Source: JBBIVP01 sp037439705 [NCBI: bacterium] (GTDB lineage: Bacteria; JBBIVP01). From it: a stretch of 9,075 nucleotides of DNA. The notes beneath the pieces were generated by a model. It searched no databases, had not been told where the DNA came from, and worked only from the letters and a program-made list of their open reading frames with translations. Below are positions 2,447-7,079 of the stretch, piece after piece. The stretch is taken from positions 1 to 9,075 of the forward strand of contig JBBIVP010000081.1 in the NCBI GenBank assembly GCA_037439705.1, in the 5' to 3' direction. Made by a program: the position numbers and the translations under genes. Numbering within the stretch: the first letter of the stretch is position 1; every line of letters starts with the position of its first letter.

Positions 2447-3445
2447 ATGAAGGGGTTAAAATTCATAATTCCATTTCTCTTTTTTAGTTTTCCTTCAAAT
2501 GCAGATGAATACATCTTGAAGATGTGTGCTATTGCTCCTGAAGGGACAAGATGGGCTCATTACGGTTATCTATACAAAGAAATGGTGGAGAAAAAGACGG
2601 GAGGAAGGGTAAAGGTTAAATGGTATCTTGGAGGGATAATGGGTGATGAACCCACTGAAGTAAGAAAGATGATGCTCAATCAGCTTCAGGGTTGTGGATT
2701 TACTTTAGTAGGTTTAGGAATTATTGCGAAGGAGGTAAAAATTTTTGAACTTCCATTCCTGTTTGAAAATTTTGAAGAAAAGGACTTTGTTCTTTCAGAA
2801 TTGACCCCTGATTTCAAAAAGATATTTGAGGATAAGGGATTTATTCTCGCAGGATGGCTTGAAGTGGGTTTCGCAAGGTTGTTTTCCATGAAACCCCTTA
2901 AAACCATTTCCGAGCTCAAAAACACGAAAATGTGGGCATGGTCAGGAGATGAACTTGCAATTTCTGCACTAAAGGGATTCGGAGTTACCAATATAATTCC
3001 CCTTCAACTTACCGATGTTTTAACTGCGATTCAGACAGGAATAATAGATGCCCTTTATGTGACCTGCTATGCAGGTTTAAGCCTTCAGTGGCACACAAGG
3101 ATGAAGTTCATCACGGACTTGCCTTTTTCCTATACCCCTGCGGGCATCCTTTTTACAAAAAAGGCAATTGATTCCCTTCCAGAGGATTTGAGGAAGACAG
3201 TTCTTGAATTGTGGAAGGATATATTTCCACAGATGAACAGGGATTTGAGGGAGGATGAGATGAAAGCATGTGAAGTTCTTGTTGAAGGCGGTCTTAAGCC
3301 AGTGGGATTTGACCCAGTAGATTTGAAAAGACTGAAGGAGGCATCCTCGGAGCTTCATAAAAAGTTTGTTGATATCTTTTATCCGAAATGGCTTCTTGAA
3401 AAGGTTTATGAGAAAAGGGAGGAGTTCAGGACAAAGAAGAGATGA
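2447..3445 (+). CDS. dctP: DctP-family TRAP-type solute-binding protein, orphan
   Basis: This 332-residue protein begins with a signal peptide (MKGLKFIIPFLFFSFPSNA, likely cut before DEY), so it should act outside the cytoplasmic membrane. The rest fits the DctP fold: an N-terminal ligand region (APEGTRWAHYGYLYKE), the family G-x-x-R stretch (GFARLFSMKPL, 141-151), a DVLTAIQTGIIDALY segment (190-204) and the C-terminal helices after LPEDLRKTV. DctP proteins normally feed organic acids to the DctQ/DctM membrane subunits, but neither is present. By eye, the arginine that in SiaP/DctP pairs with the ligand carboxylate (K-L-R-V) is W163 here (KMWAWSGDE). I recall such W-containing DctP-like proteins as a distinct subgroup, so the ligand is uncertain. 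The last bases overlap the phosphoesterase start (ATGA), implying co-translation. Confidence 0.88.
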   Translation: MKGLKFIIPFLFFSFPSNADEYILKMCAIAPEGTRWAHYGYLYKEMVEKKTGGRVKVKWYLGGIMGDEPTEVRKMMLNQLQGCGFTLVGLGIIAKEVKIFELPFLFENFEEKDFVLSELTPDFKKIFEDKGFILAGWLEVGFARLFSMKPLKTISELKNTKMWAWSGDELAISALKGFGVTNIIPLQLTDVLTAIQTGIIDALYVTCYAGLSLQWHTRMKFITDLPFSYTPAGILFTKKAIDSLPEDLRKTVLELWKDIFPQMNRDLREDEMKACEVLVEGGLKPVGFDPVDLKRLKEASSELHKKFVDIFYPKWLLEKVYEKREEFRTKKR

Positions 3446-4512
3446 ACTTTAGGCTCATAGTTTCTGACCTTCATCTCGGGAAGGGAAAATTCAAGAAGGA
3501 CGGAAGTTTAAATCCATACGAGGATTTTGTTGATGAGGAGATGTTTTGTGAATTGCTCAGGTTTTTCTCCACCGGAAAATACGAAGGTGTAGAGGCAGAA
3601 ATAGTTTTCAATGGCGATACATTAAATATCGTTCAGACTGCTGTTGAGGAAAATCCTGATAAAATAGAGATTACAGAGGAAGATGTGCTTTCTGCAGCGT
3701 ATGAAACAATTGAGGGACATCCGAAATTCTTTGAGGCTATAAATTCATTTTTTTCAAAGAGAAAATGGGGAAAGGTTATTTTCGTAGCTGGAAATCACGA
3801 CCAGGCAATTCTTCATCCTGAGATTCAGAGGATGATAAGGGAAAAAATTGAAGGAAATGTTCTGTTCTGTCCGGTTTCATACGATATAGGAGATGTGCAC
3901 ATTGAACACGGGCACAATATGGAGTTTATCCACCAGTACAATCCCGAGGAGATGTGGTACATAAAAAATGGAAAAAGGTTTCTCAAAATACCTTGGGGAA
4001 GCCATTTCATAATCCAGATAATAGTTCCTTTGAAGGAGAAACTGCCGGTAATTGACAAAATAAAACCCTTCGGAACATTTATCAAATGGGGATTGTTTTT
4101 CAAAACAGGATTTGCCTTAAAAGCCCTTGCAAAGATGCTCTGGTTTTACATATACAATCGTTTCTTTCATCCATATAAAGAACACAGGGATACCTTCAAA
4201 CTCAATATACCCGCTATAATTGATGGCGCCACCCACAGAAATGTCTGGAAATATGTTACAGCACTTGGAAGAAGAGGGTTCAAAACCGTTATAATGGGGC
4301 ACACCCACATTCCAATGAAGAGATACATAAATGGGGTTTATTATATAAATAAAGGTACTTGGATAAATATGGAAAGCGTAGCCCTCGGTTCATTTGGAAT
4401 GAAGTGGAAAAAAACCTTCGTGCTTGACGAGAATATTGATGGAAAAAGGAAAATCTCGCTTAAGGTTTGGAGGGGAGGAAGAAGGGAAAAATCAGAGATT
4501 CTTTATTTATGA
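3442..4512 (+). CDS. Calcineurin-like metallophosphoesterase
   Basis: This 356-residue phosphoesterase has the full two-metal site: SDLHLG (D9, H11), NGD (D59), GNHD (N118, H119), HGH (H156, H158) and GHTH (H287, H289). The family hydrolyses phosphomonoesters, diesters or pyrophosphates. The motif order resembles LpxH-type UDP-2,3-diacylglucosamine pyrophosphatases, but the second motif is GDTLN rather than the GDxFD of classical LpxH, and no lipid A genes are nearby, so I do not assign lpxH. About 100 residues between HGH and GHTH (roughly 160-260) hold basic and aromatic-rich hydrophobic segments around 183-243 (for example FIIQIIVPLKEK and KMLWFYIYNRFF). These could bind a membrane surface or form a lid over a lipid substrate. 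There is no signal peptide, so it should be cytoplasmic. It starts within the end of dctP (ATGA overlap) and is probably translated with it. Confidence 0.85.
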   Translation: MNFRLIVSDLHLGKGKFKKDGSLNPYEDFVDEEMFCELLRFFSTGKYEGVEAEIVFNGDTLNIVQTAVEENPDKIEITEEDVLSAAYETIEGHPKFFEAINSFFSKRKWGKVIFVAGNHDQAILHPEIQRMIREKIEGNVLFCPVSYDIGDVHIEHGHNMEFIHQYNPEEMWYIKNGKRFLKIPWGSHFIIQIIVPLKEKLPVIDKIKPFGTFIKWGLFFKTGFALKALAKMLWFYIYNRFFHPYKEHRDTFKLNIPAIIDGATHRNVWKYVTALGRRGFKTVIMGHTHIPMKRYINGVYYINKGTWINMESVALGSFGMKWKKTFVLDENIDGKRKISLKVWRGGRREKSEILYL

Positions 4513-4552: not shown

Positions 4553-4768
4553 ATGCAGGAAATGGGAAAACTCCTTATAACTTTTGGGTTATTTTTCATT
4601 TTTATAGGAGGGATTTTAACACTTTTTTCAAAGTTTTCATTTATCGGTCACCTGCCGGGAGATATAATAATAAAAAGGAATTCGTGGTCCTTTTACTTTC
4701 CGCTGACCTCTTCAATAATTATAAGCCTCATTCTTACCCTACTTTTAAATCTCTTGTTAAGAAAATAA
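4553..4768 (+). CDS. DUF2905 family small membrane protein
   Basis: This 71-residue protein has two hydrophobic helices (about 6-24 and 48-67) joined by a short loop with the family hallmark GHLPGDIIIKRN, followed by FYFPLTSS. DUF2905 proteins are widespread in bacteria and uncharacterised; many are 60-75 residues, so this one appears complete. I chose ATG 4553 (M-Q-E-M-G-K) because a perfect -10 lies 7 bases upstream, giving a leaderless first AUG. The alternative ATG at 4562, matching the M-G-K start common in the family, has an AGGA only one base away, too close to work as a ribosome site. The frame is open further upstream, but only because it overlaps the phosphoesterase end. The kinase gene follows after one base, so the two are almost certainly co-transcribed. 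Confidence 0.85.
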   Translation: MQEMGKLLITFGLFFIFIGGILTLFSKFSFIGHLPGDIIIKRNSWSFYFPLTSSIIISLILTLLLNLLLRK

Positions 4769-4769
4769 A

Positions 4770-7079
4770 ATGGAAGGACTTCTTTACGAGATATTGAAGG
4801 GAATTCCCGTTTTTCTTTCTATACTTCTATTAGTAATCCTTATCTTCAAAAGGAGTCCTTCAAAAGAAGAAAGTTCAGATGCATTGATAAATTTCTACAA
4901 AAGGAAAAAGGATTTTTTGAGGGCAGGATTTCTCTATGAAAAAAAGGGGGATATTAAAAATACAATTTCCATGTACGAAGAAGCAGGAGCACACGGACTT
5001 ATGCTTAAACTGAGCGAAAAATATGGGTTGAAAGAAGAAGAGGCTAAAGCACGCTCCTGTCTTGGAGATAATGAAACAGCAGGTCAGATTTATGAGGATT
5101 TAAAAAATTTCAAAAAGGCTTTTGAAGAATATGTGAAAGGAAAAAGGATGAGAAAATCAATGGAATGTGCAAGAAAAATTGGAATGGATTTCCTTCCCCT
5201 TGAATCCATTGAAGAGGTGGGAGGTTATGAAAAGGTATTTTTTACGGAACTCAAAAGGGGGAACATAAAAAGGGCTTTAGATGTAGGAAAAATTCTTTTC
5301 AAGGAGAAATTTACCAGCCTTCCAGATGAACTTAGGGCATCGAATCCCTTTCTGAAAAGAATAGCAAAAGAGATGGGAAAAATATGCGAAAAAGAAAATC
5401 TGCTTGCGGAAGGAGGAAGGTTTTATTTTTATGCTGGAGAGCTTTCAAAATCCGCTCAACTTTACGAACTTGCTGGAGATAAAAAAAGGGCTGCGGAGAT
5501 ATTTTTTCAGGTAAGGGATTTTAAAAATTCAAAAAGGATTTATGAGGAACTAAAAGATAAAGAGATGCTGAAAAAGGTAGAGCTGGAGATAGCAATTGAA
5601 GAAAAAAAATTCTTTGATGCAGGAAGGATTGCGGAAGAGATGGGTGATTTTAAGAGGGCTGCGGAATTTTACGAAATAGCCGGGAATTACATGAAGACCG
5701 GGGAGATGCTTTTAAAGGATGGAGAGCCGATAAGGGCAGGAGAGATGTTTGAAAGGGCTGGGAATTTTATGATGGCAGCGGAAGCATTTGAAAGGGGAGG
5801 AAATTTCAGAAAAGCCGGAGAGATTTACAGAAAATTAGGAAACAAAAAGAAAGAAATAGAATGCTATATTGGTGCAGGAGACTTTTTCATGGCGGGCATA
5901 ACCTCCTTTGAAACCGGGGATATAGAAAATGCGATGAAATTTCTTCAGAAGGTTCCTTCAAATTCAGAGAATTATTTAAAAGCCTCTGAACTTCTTGGGA
6001 TAATATTTGCTGAAAGAGGACTTTACACACAGGCAATAGAGAGATTAAAATCCGCATTGAAAGACCAGTCCTGTGATTCCTCAAATATAAGAGCCTTTTA
6101 TGCTCTTGGACTTTCCTATCAGGTAACTGGAAATGTAAAATCCGCTCTTTCCGCTTTTGAAAAGGTTCTGGCGGTGGATATAAATTACAGGGATGTTCCA
6201 CAGAGGGTTCATGAATTGAAACAGCTTTTAACTCCTTCTTCAAGGAGGGATTTTGAAGTAGAGACAAAAGATATGAGAAAGAGGGAAAAACCCATTGAAA
6301 AATACGAGATAATTGAGGAGATAGGAAGAGGGGGGATGGGAATACTCTATAAGGCAAGGGATAAAATTCTTGACAGAATTGTTGCATTAAAGGTTCTTCC
6401 ACAGGAACTGGCATCAAATAAAGAGGCAGTTGATAGTTTTATAAAAGAAGCAAAAGCCTGCGCTTCCCTTCTTCATCCTCATATTGTAACAGTTTATGAC
6501 GCTGGCTTTTTCAGGGACTCACTTTTTATGTCAATGGAATTCATAGATGGACCGAGCATAAAAGAGTTGCTTGAAAAGGGGAGGTTGAATTACAAATATG
6601 TTATTTTTATATCCGCTCAGGTGTGCAAGGGACTGGATTTCGCCCATTCAAAAAAAATTATTCACAGGGACATAAAGCCCGGTAATATAATGCTTACAAG
6701 CAAGAAAGTGGTAAAGATAGTGGATTTTGGGCTGGCAAAGGTAATTGAGGAGGTGAGAAAGGGATACACGGTAGCTTCAGGAACTCCTTATTACATGTCT
6801 CCGGAGCAGACCCTCGGTGAGGAGGTAGATCATCGGGCAGATATATACTCTTTCGGAGTTACTATGTTTGAAATGTTAACAGGAGAACCACCTTTTACAG
6901 GTGGAGATGTTGGCTACCATCATGTTCATACTCCTCCACCACCGATAAGAGAGTTTGCTTCTGATGTTCCTCCTGAGCTTGAGGCGATTGTTCTGAAATG
7001 CCTTGAAAAGAAGCCAGAAAACAGGTTTCAATCGGTTAAGGAACTTTTCATTGCATTGAGGAATGTTTATAAAGGATGA
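4770..7079 (+). CDS. Membrane-anchored Ser/Thr protein kinase with a helical-repeat N-terminus
   Basis: This 769-residue protein has four parts. One membrane helix (about 11-27) is followed by KRSPSK, which by the positive-inside rule places the rest in the cytoplasm. Residues 47-395 are short helical repeats with a 13-residue period. Residues about 400-485 contain one or two ordinary TPRs (for example 438-471). Residues 511-765 are a Hanks-type kinase: glycine loop GRGGMG (519-524), K541 (VALK), E560, HRDIKPGN (632-639), DFG (652-654) and SPEQ (677-680). All catalytic residues are present and the RD pair suggests activation-loop regulation; T667, S670 and T672 are candidate sites. It should phosphorylate Ser/Thr on unknown partners, with the repeats as the protein-binding part. 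There is no extracellular sensor such as PASTA, nor a neighbouring phosphatase of the PP2C type. It follows the DUF2905 gene by one base without a Shine-Dalgarno sequence and overlaps queF by ATGA. Confidence 0.93.
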   Translation: MEGLLYEILKGIPVFLSILLLVILIFKRSPSKEESSDALINFYKRKKDFLRAGFLYEKKGDIKNTISMYEEAGAHGLMLKLSEKYGLKEEEAKARSCLGDNETAGQIYEDLKNFKKAFEEYVKGKRMRKSMECARKIGMDFLPLESIEEVGGYEKVFFTELKRGNIKRALDVGKILFKEKFTSLPDELRASNPFLKRIAKEMGKICEKENLLAEGGRFYFYAGELSKSAQLYELAGDKKRAAEIFFQVRDFKNSKRIYEELKDKEMLKKVELEIAIEEKKFFDAGRIAEEMGDFKRAAEFYEIAGNYMKTGEMLLKDGEPIRAGEMFERAGNFMMAAEAFERGGNFRKAGEIYRKLGNKKKEIECYIGAGDFFMAGITSFETGDIENAMKFLQKVPSNSENYLKASELLGIIFAERGLYTQAIERLKSALKDQSCDSSNIRAFYALGLSYQVTGNVKSALSAFEKVLAVDINYRDVPQRVHELKQLLTPSSRRDFEVETKDMRKREKPIEKYEIIEEIGRGGMGILYKARDKILDRIVALKVLPQELASNKEAVDSFIKEAKACASLLHPHIVTVYDAGFFRDSLFMSMEFIDGPSIKELLEKGRLNYKYVIFISAQVCKGLDFAHSKKIIHRDIKPGNIMLTSKKVVKIVDFGLAKVIEEVRKGYTVASGTPYYMSPEQTLGEEVDHRADIYSFGVTMFEMLTGEPPFTGGDVGYHHVHTPPPPIREFASDVPPELEAIVLKCLEKKPENRFQSVKELFIALRNVYKG
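4908..5954 (+). repeat. Protein-level tandem repeat, 13 residues (39 bases) per unit, in the kinase
   Basis: Reading the kinase in steps of 13 aligns the same pattern again and again: G-[DN]-x-x-x-A-[AG]-E-x-[YF]-x-x-[AG]. The clearest block is residues 279-395, nine units in strict register, with glycines at 292, 305, 318, 331, 344, 357, 370 and 383. Examples are GDFKRAAEFYEIA, GNFMMAAEAFERG and GNFRKAGEIYRKL. Residues 210-274 give five more units and residues 47-176 about ten, with glycines at 60, 73, 86, 99, 138, 151 and 164. The phase breaks only around 177-209 and by four residues at 275-278. The DNA copies are diverged, so this is an old protein repeat rather than a recent DNA duplication. 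Confidence 0.85.

Follow-up and report, generated by a model that had tools for sequence, protein, structure and literature searches.

Bacterial kinases joined to a helical-repeat scaffold are already known. Passages of PMC1262709 list kinases bearing tetratricopeptide repeats (TPRs) as early as 2005, parts of PMC11032199 describe kinases with repeat arrays (TPR, WD40) as common in Planctomycetota and myxobacteria, and the TPR domain of PknG has been proposed, in sections of PMC8546545, as a localisation scaffold coupling signal to substrate phosphorylation. Here we describe a Hanks-type Ser/Thr kinase encoded on contig JBBIVP010000081.1 of the bacterial assembly GCA_037439705.1 (JBBIVP01 sp037439705), the whole analysed stretch of which (9,075 nt) is called the window. 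Unlike two kinases with C-terminal TPRs, which have a period of 34 residues, this kinase and its relatives have a period of 13, and they look like a separable family in which a 13-residue solenoid lies between membrane anchor and kinase.

The 13-residue solenoid and its kinase

An earlier note on this DNA had placed one strict array of 13-residue units, each with Gly plus Asp/Asn, at 4908-5954 (residues 47-395 of the open reading frame (ORF) 4770-7079), instead of 34-residue TPRs. The period stood; the single array did not, since three blocks out of phase with one another were found, and the replacement of TPRs holds for residues 47-395, with two ordinary TPRs following at 402-468.

4770-7079, + strand: Ser/Thr kinase gene, 769 amino acids (ORF; PF00069, E 7.8e-55)
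4791-4847, + strand: single hydrophobic, predicted transmembrane segment, residues 8-26 (hydropathy 2.77)
4908-5297, + strand: solenoid block 1, residues 47-176, in 13-residue units (Gly spacing, autocorrelation and second-model helices)
5298-5396, + strand: break between blocks, residues 177-209, with a longer helix (193-208 in the model)
5397-5600, + strand: solenoid block 2, residues 210-277 (predicted helices 212-221, 225-234, 238-247, 251-261 and 264-277)
5607-5954, + strand: solenoid block 3, residues 280-395, with eight in-phase Gly (nine predicted helices; autocorrelation)
5973-6173, + strand: two canonical TPRs, residues 402-468 (predicted helices 402-415, 419-429, 440-453 and 456-468)
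6303-7031, + strand: Hanks-type kinase domain, residues 512-754 (PF00069; conserved catalytic motifs)
6768-6770, + strand: T667, the activation-segment Thr (invariant in 31 of 31 sequences)

Periodicity was measured as BLOSUM62 autocorrelation against 2000 shuffles. Over residues 30-405 the z-score is 9.3 at lag 13, 6.2 at lag 26 and 6.5 at lag 39, compared with a 99% shuffle maximum over all lags of 3.7 and a highest shuffle of 4.4; the period is thus significant. At lag 34 z is -1.3, and a canonical TPR array of 34-residue period was rejected for residues 47-395 on this comparison. The signal is likewise high over residues 205-405 (z 9.0 at lag 13) and in block 3 (z 7.2-8.1 at lags 13, 26 and 39). 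It is borderline for residues 30-183 alone, where z 4.1 at lag 13 exceeds the 99% level (3.7) and falls short of the highest shuffle (4.7). By the same test residues 400-480 and the kinase domain have no 13-residue period. A chance repeat is ruled out by the shuffles together with the period of the relatives (below).

Gly occupies all eight in-phase positions of block 3 (292, 305, 318, 331, 344, 357, 370 and 383), and the next residue is Asp or Asn in seven of the eight, with Glu in the case of 318. Seven of ten positions of the best phase hold Gly in residues 47-176. Just two of six do so in residues 210-280, so the repeat claimed for 210-274 is weak if judged by Gly alone. The registers of the three blocks (47-176, 210-277 and 280-395) differ, with breaks near 177-210 and near 264-280. 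The note had also put Ala/Gly at unit positions 6-7 and Tyr/Phe at position 10. The former are mostly present, and in six of the nine units of block 3 Ala at position 6 occurs in 31 of 31 sequences of the family alignment; at position 10 Tyr/Phe is common without being strict, with Leu in places.

AlphaFold2 was run twice on the window protein together with one relative (L001), the second time on residues 29-500 only. The models agree over residues 212-393, with helices mostly of 10 residues, one per 13 (9-11 residues throughout, except one of 14 at 264-277), and both begin the helices of block 3 at 281, 294, 307, 320, 333, 346, 359, 372 and 385. The predicted local distance difference test score (pLDDT), averaged per ten residues, is 86-94 over residues 201-400 in the first model; it is about 88-97 over blocks 2 and 3 in the second. 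Block 1 is not resolved in the first model. Its start appears in the second as helices 49-58, 62-71, 75-84 and 88-98 (pLDDT about 72-88), followed by low confidence at about 99-158. The models therefore agree with the note's picture of one short helix and a tight Gly-Asp/Asn turn per unit, confidently over 210-395 and less so over 47-98, and over the confidently modelled 210-395 we saw neither 34-residue steps nor a loss of the 13-residue period. On this evidence residues 47-395, apart from the low-confidence stretch at about 99-158, do not form canonical TPR hairpins, in which each of the two helices has about 12-14 residues. Residues 402-468, on the other hand, do pass as canonical TPRs, having a Pfam TPR_8 match at 441-469 and four predicted helices of 11-14 residues.

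The note had further likened the repeat to solenoids of intraflagellar transport (IFT) proteins. A solenoid-only profile, built from 18 of 32 sequences, matches 34 distinct PDB sequences at E<=0.01, comprising 18 IFT chains, 8 SNAPs and 8 engineered or designed repeat proteins. Proteins of these three kinds are mostly binding scaffolds. Thirteen of the IFT chains carry an intraflagellar-transport name and five a WD-repeat name, and we take these five to belong to IFT complexes. IFT144 ranks first (E 1.6e-9), as it does, weakly, for the window solenoid sequence by itself (E 0.001). IFT144 is itself 13-periodic, with z 5.1 at lag 13 in residues 836-946 and z 5.5 in the best-scoring stretch, 951-1065, and no signal at lag 34; an engineered TPR control gives z 24.3 at lag 34 and none at 13. 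The likeness thus found support. As the IFT144 stretches share the period, a unit of 13 residues is no novelty by itself. Queries that take in the TPR tail bring engineered TPRs to the top of the PDB sequence search. The top 50 structural matches listed by VIA-align 2 for both models fall mostly over the canonical TPR tail. Among the top 50 listed by Foldseek for the second model (root-mean-square deviation about 15-35), the IFT-A chains 8fgw, 8bbg and 8bbe do not rank above other TPR proteins. The IFT resemblance is accordingly one of sequence profiles and period, not of superposition.

The kinase domain scores 186.5 bits against PF00069 (cut-off 31.7). The Gly loop, catalytic Lys, alpha-C Glu, HRD and DFG are present in all 31 aligned sequences, window included, the catalytic residues being K541, E560, H632-R633-D634 and D652-F653-G654. 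Judged by these motifs the protein is an RD-type kinase with every tested Hanks motif intact, which agrees with the earlier note's description of it as active as far as motifs go, activity itself being predicted. T667 is a likely candidate for an autophosphorylation site. Only 15 residues follow the domain, and the repeats (47-468) all lie N-terminal to it. Assignment as a PASTA kinase (PknB/Stk1) was rejected, since NCBIfam NF033483 gives 317.5 bits against a cut-off of 450, with profile positions 7-269 of 563 aligned.

The membrane anchor named in the earlier note was found as the single N-terminal hydrophobic segment. Because Lys/Arg follow it, the remainder of the window protein is probably cytoplasmic. 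Most relatives (27 of 31) have two hydrophobic segments before the solenoid, with about 46 residues in the loop between them; a single segment is present in three, and one relative has none within the stretch examined. The Lys/Arg density in the 27 is 0.07 in the loop, 0.22 before the first segment and 0.13 after the second.

Family, conservation and gene surroundings

A single-sequence scan of named genome contigs returned one relative with both solenoid and kinase (L001, from a Myxococcales metagenome-assembled genome (MAG); 35% identity over residues 209-759) and three kinase-only matches. This relative (L001:2551-7908) has 1785 amino acids, and its solenoid and kinase come after a long N-terminal stretch and a hydrophobic segment. 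Residues 201-769 are matched at E<=1e-68 in 122 of 377 genomes of the phylum of the Myxococcales MAG, where nearly all matches listed (best first) take in some of the solenoid together with the TPRs and the kinase, and in 5 of 199 genomes of the phylum of a Planctomycetota MAG. The copy number in each genome is a lower bound, because scoring was confined to a few top candidates from each. On these matches the window kinase is one member of a large bacterial kinase family and not a lone oddity. The earlier note had known of no characterised kinase like it; our literature search, which was weak on subscription papers, likewise found no description of a solenoid-kinase family, and we do not claim its absence from print. 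Novelty is qualified by the size of the family and by the unit shared with IFT144.

The 30 best relatives (L013-L042) have z 7.5-12.0 at lag 13, and L001 has 4.7. Among the 30 the signal peaks at lag 13 in 12 relatives and at lag 26 in the other 18, as would suit a hairpin of 26 residues built from two 13-residue halves; at lag 34 z does not exceed -0.2 (1.0 in L001). These 30 are best matches and mutually close (mean kinase identity 78%), and so are not independent samples. A second set of 18 family rows, six of which repeat genes of the first, added 12 distinct members with z 7.7-10.7 at lag 13; four come from the Planctomycetota phylum, including one found via its kinase alone (L062). The 13-residue period is thus kept in 43 of 43 distinct relatives tested, with z at lag 34 of at most 1.0. 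It was not seen in 14 other kinase ORFs on flanks long enough to test (z at most 2.1). The two kinases with C-terminal TPRs (L012 and L010, from Planctomycetota MAGs; TPRs by Pfam) give z 6.4 and 6.2 at lag 34.

Relatives are on average 53% identical to the window protein over the kinase domain, 36% over the TPRs and 24% over the solenoid. When sequences are compared in pairs, solenoid identity correlates with kinase identity across the 31 sequences (Mantel r 0.89; none of 2000 permutations as high): solenoid and kinase are inherited together. Two scans of viral contigs, which did not cover phage and plasmid records, returned no relative, and a viral origin has no support from them.

In the window the kinase gene directly follows a small gene on the same strand.

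4553-4768, + strand: DUF2905 small membrane protein gene (PF11146, E 5e-22)

The DUF2905 stop and the kinase ATG are separated by one base, and the kinase ORF shares four bases with the QueF gene; because of this spacing the kinase gene probably lies in an operon. Upstream on the same strand are genes for a B12-dependent ribonucleotide reductase, a TRAP-type solute-binding protein, a calcineurin-like metallophosphoesterase and DUF2905, and downstream are those for QueF and then adenine deaminase. The solute-binding protein (DctP) lies at 2447-3445; the window genes scanned with Pfam gave no TRAP membrane subunit. The metallophosphoesterase, at 3442-4512 just 5' of the DUF2905-kinase pair, was considered as a cognate phosphatase and rejected, having a weak Pfam Metallophos match (2.1e-5) and no link to the kinase that we could find. 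Speculatively, the DUF2905 protein and the kinase might act together, as relatives mostly have two hydrophobic segments and the window kinase one. The window NrdJ (97-2385) has matches of 48-53% identity (E<=1e-150) in 8 of 140 genomes of the phylum of the Myxococcales MAG and none in the other 132. As identities reach only about 53% there, the window DNA probably lies outside that phylum.

We also compared 16 regions of relatives, of which 14 have the family kinase in the crude gene list used; two (L044 and L057) were dropped, the gene having probably been lost by the caller. Neighbours were identified by Pfam on one example per cluster. Seven regions form lineage one, with a ruvB cluster in 4 of 7, ruvA in 3, lpxC in 3, a PilZ gene in 4 and dnaK in 4. 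In the seven regions of lineage two a PEGA/TPR-cluster protein is directly upstream of the kinase in 7 of 7, with rsmA nearby in 6 and moaC in 4. An instance of this upstream protein is L045:5961-7022 (PEGA/TPR in the scanned example), a possible envelope partner. The recurring chromosomal positions fit a vertically inherited gene.

Proposed role and rival explanations

We lean, with slightly more than even confidence, towards a membrane-tethered cytoplasmic Hanks kinase whose solenoid serves as a docking or regulatory scaffold, by analogy with the TPR domain of PknG. The chain would run from an N-terminal hydrophobic anchor through an alpha-solenoid of 26-residue hairpins in three blocks, two TPRs and a linker of about 40 residues to the RD kinase. 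We infer the docking role, its coupling to kinase activity, the cytoplasmic side and the phosphosite: the solenoid would be a rod binding one or more cytoplasmic or membrane partners and keeping them near the kinase, the signal of partner binding would pass along the TPRs and linker and affect which substrate is chosen or whether the kinase is activated, and T667 would be the likely site of autophosphorylation.

Several points weigh against this proposal. We found no partner, substrate or cognate phosphatase. Of the 27 relatives with two hydrophobic segments, 22 have a negative net charge after the second one, and the topology argument from relatives is for that reason one of Lys/Arg density only. 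The co-variation of solenoid and kinase may partly reflect the close kinship of many of the 30 relatives, and the lower identity of the solenoid (compared with the kinase) suggests that the bound partner may differ between lineages. The gene neighbours do not point to a pathway, as they are not the same in the two lineages and include many housekeeping genes. The model of the kinase domain is poor (pLDDT <50 in the first run, probably owing to a shallow alignment), and no solenoid-kinase contact is visible as a result.

The kinases might instead associate side by side through their solenoids, much as subunits do in IFT-A, and so cluster at the membrane and activate one another in trans. Such self-assembly, which we rate as unlikely, would account for the predominance of IFT chains, IFT144 foremost, among the solved-structure matches and would suit an RD kinase with an invariant activation-segment Thr; parts of PMC9674347 describe IFT-A subunits as touching one another via their TPR tails. 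The similarity may, however, reflect merely a shared amphipathic pattern. A stronger form, in which the solenoid is a true homologue of the IFT-A type building membrane-attached assemblies with signalling in trans, seems to us highly doubtful; if true, it would make the protein a bacterial relative of the helical half of IFT and coat proteins joined to a signalling enzyme. Solenoid and TPRs could also fold against the kinase until a ligand releases it, with no docking of substrate. Their position directly before the kinase in one chain and the co-variation are in keeping with autoinhibition, but no contact surface could be modelled and no inhibitory segment is known, though no search was aimed at one; we judge it distinctly unlikely. 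That the 13-residue pattern is a degenerate canonical TPR array without an identity of its own is barely credible. Canonical TPRs adjoin the solenoid, Pfam TPR models match the protein (TPR_7 even inside 285-303), and engineered TPRs are the best matches once the tail is in the query. Against this stand the autocorrelation, with lag 34 silent in the window protein and in all 43 relatives and clear in the two C-terminal-TPR kinases, and both AlphaFold2 models, with helices of about 10 residues rather than about 14; a decayed array was rejected for residues 47-395 on these grounds.

Under the scaffold proposal, the recognised unit is a target for testing how a helical rod steers a bacterial kinase. 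Generic annotation is likely to label such proteins 'kinase with TPR'.

Comparison with known systems

Alpha/gamma-SNAP and clathrin-type repeats are found by Pfam in the solenoid-plus-TPR alignment (SNAP in 31 of 31 members, Clathrin in 29 of 31, at E<=0.001), although the matches are partial and the window protein reaches 20.3 bits for Clathrin, below the cut-off of 29.6. With the TPR tails of the IFT-A proteins (IFT144, IFT140, IFT122 and IFT121/WDR35) it shares Ala-rich helical units and Gly turns; these tails go by the name of TPR in the literature, as in passages of PMC9674347. According to the same passages, the IFT-A proteins, unlike the window kinase, are eukaryotic and have WD40 heads. 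No WD40 is among the 25 of 34 Pfam matches listed for the kinase protein, and residues 29-500 are predicted to be helical wherever the model is confident. Convergence is possible for repeats of such composition, the likeness being one of sequence; even so, it raises the question of a shared origin of bacterial and IFT-type 13-residue solenoids.

Nearer in domain content are the TPR kinases of Planctomycetota and myxobacteria, whose repeats lie for the most part C-terminally and, in Ca. Uabimicrobium, largely in the periplasm (parts of PMC11032199), whereas in the window family they lie between anchor and kinase, and probably on the kinase side of the membrane. PknG of Actinobacteria likewise joins a Hanks kinase and a helical-repeat domain in one chain. 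Sections of PMC11032199 and PMC8546545 describe PknG as a cytoplasmic protein with its TPRs C-terminal to the kinase, while the window protein has an N-terminal, 13-periodic solenoid and a membrane anchor.

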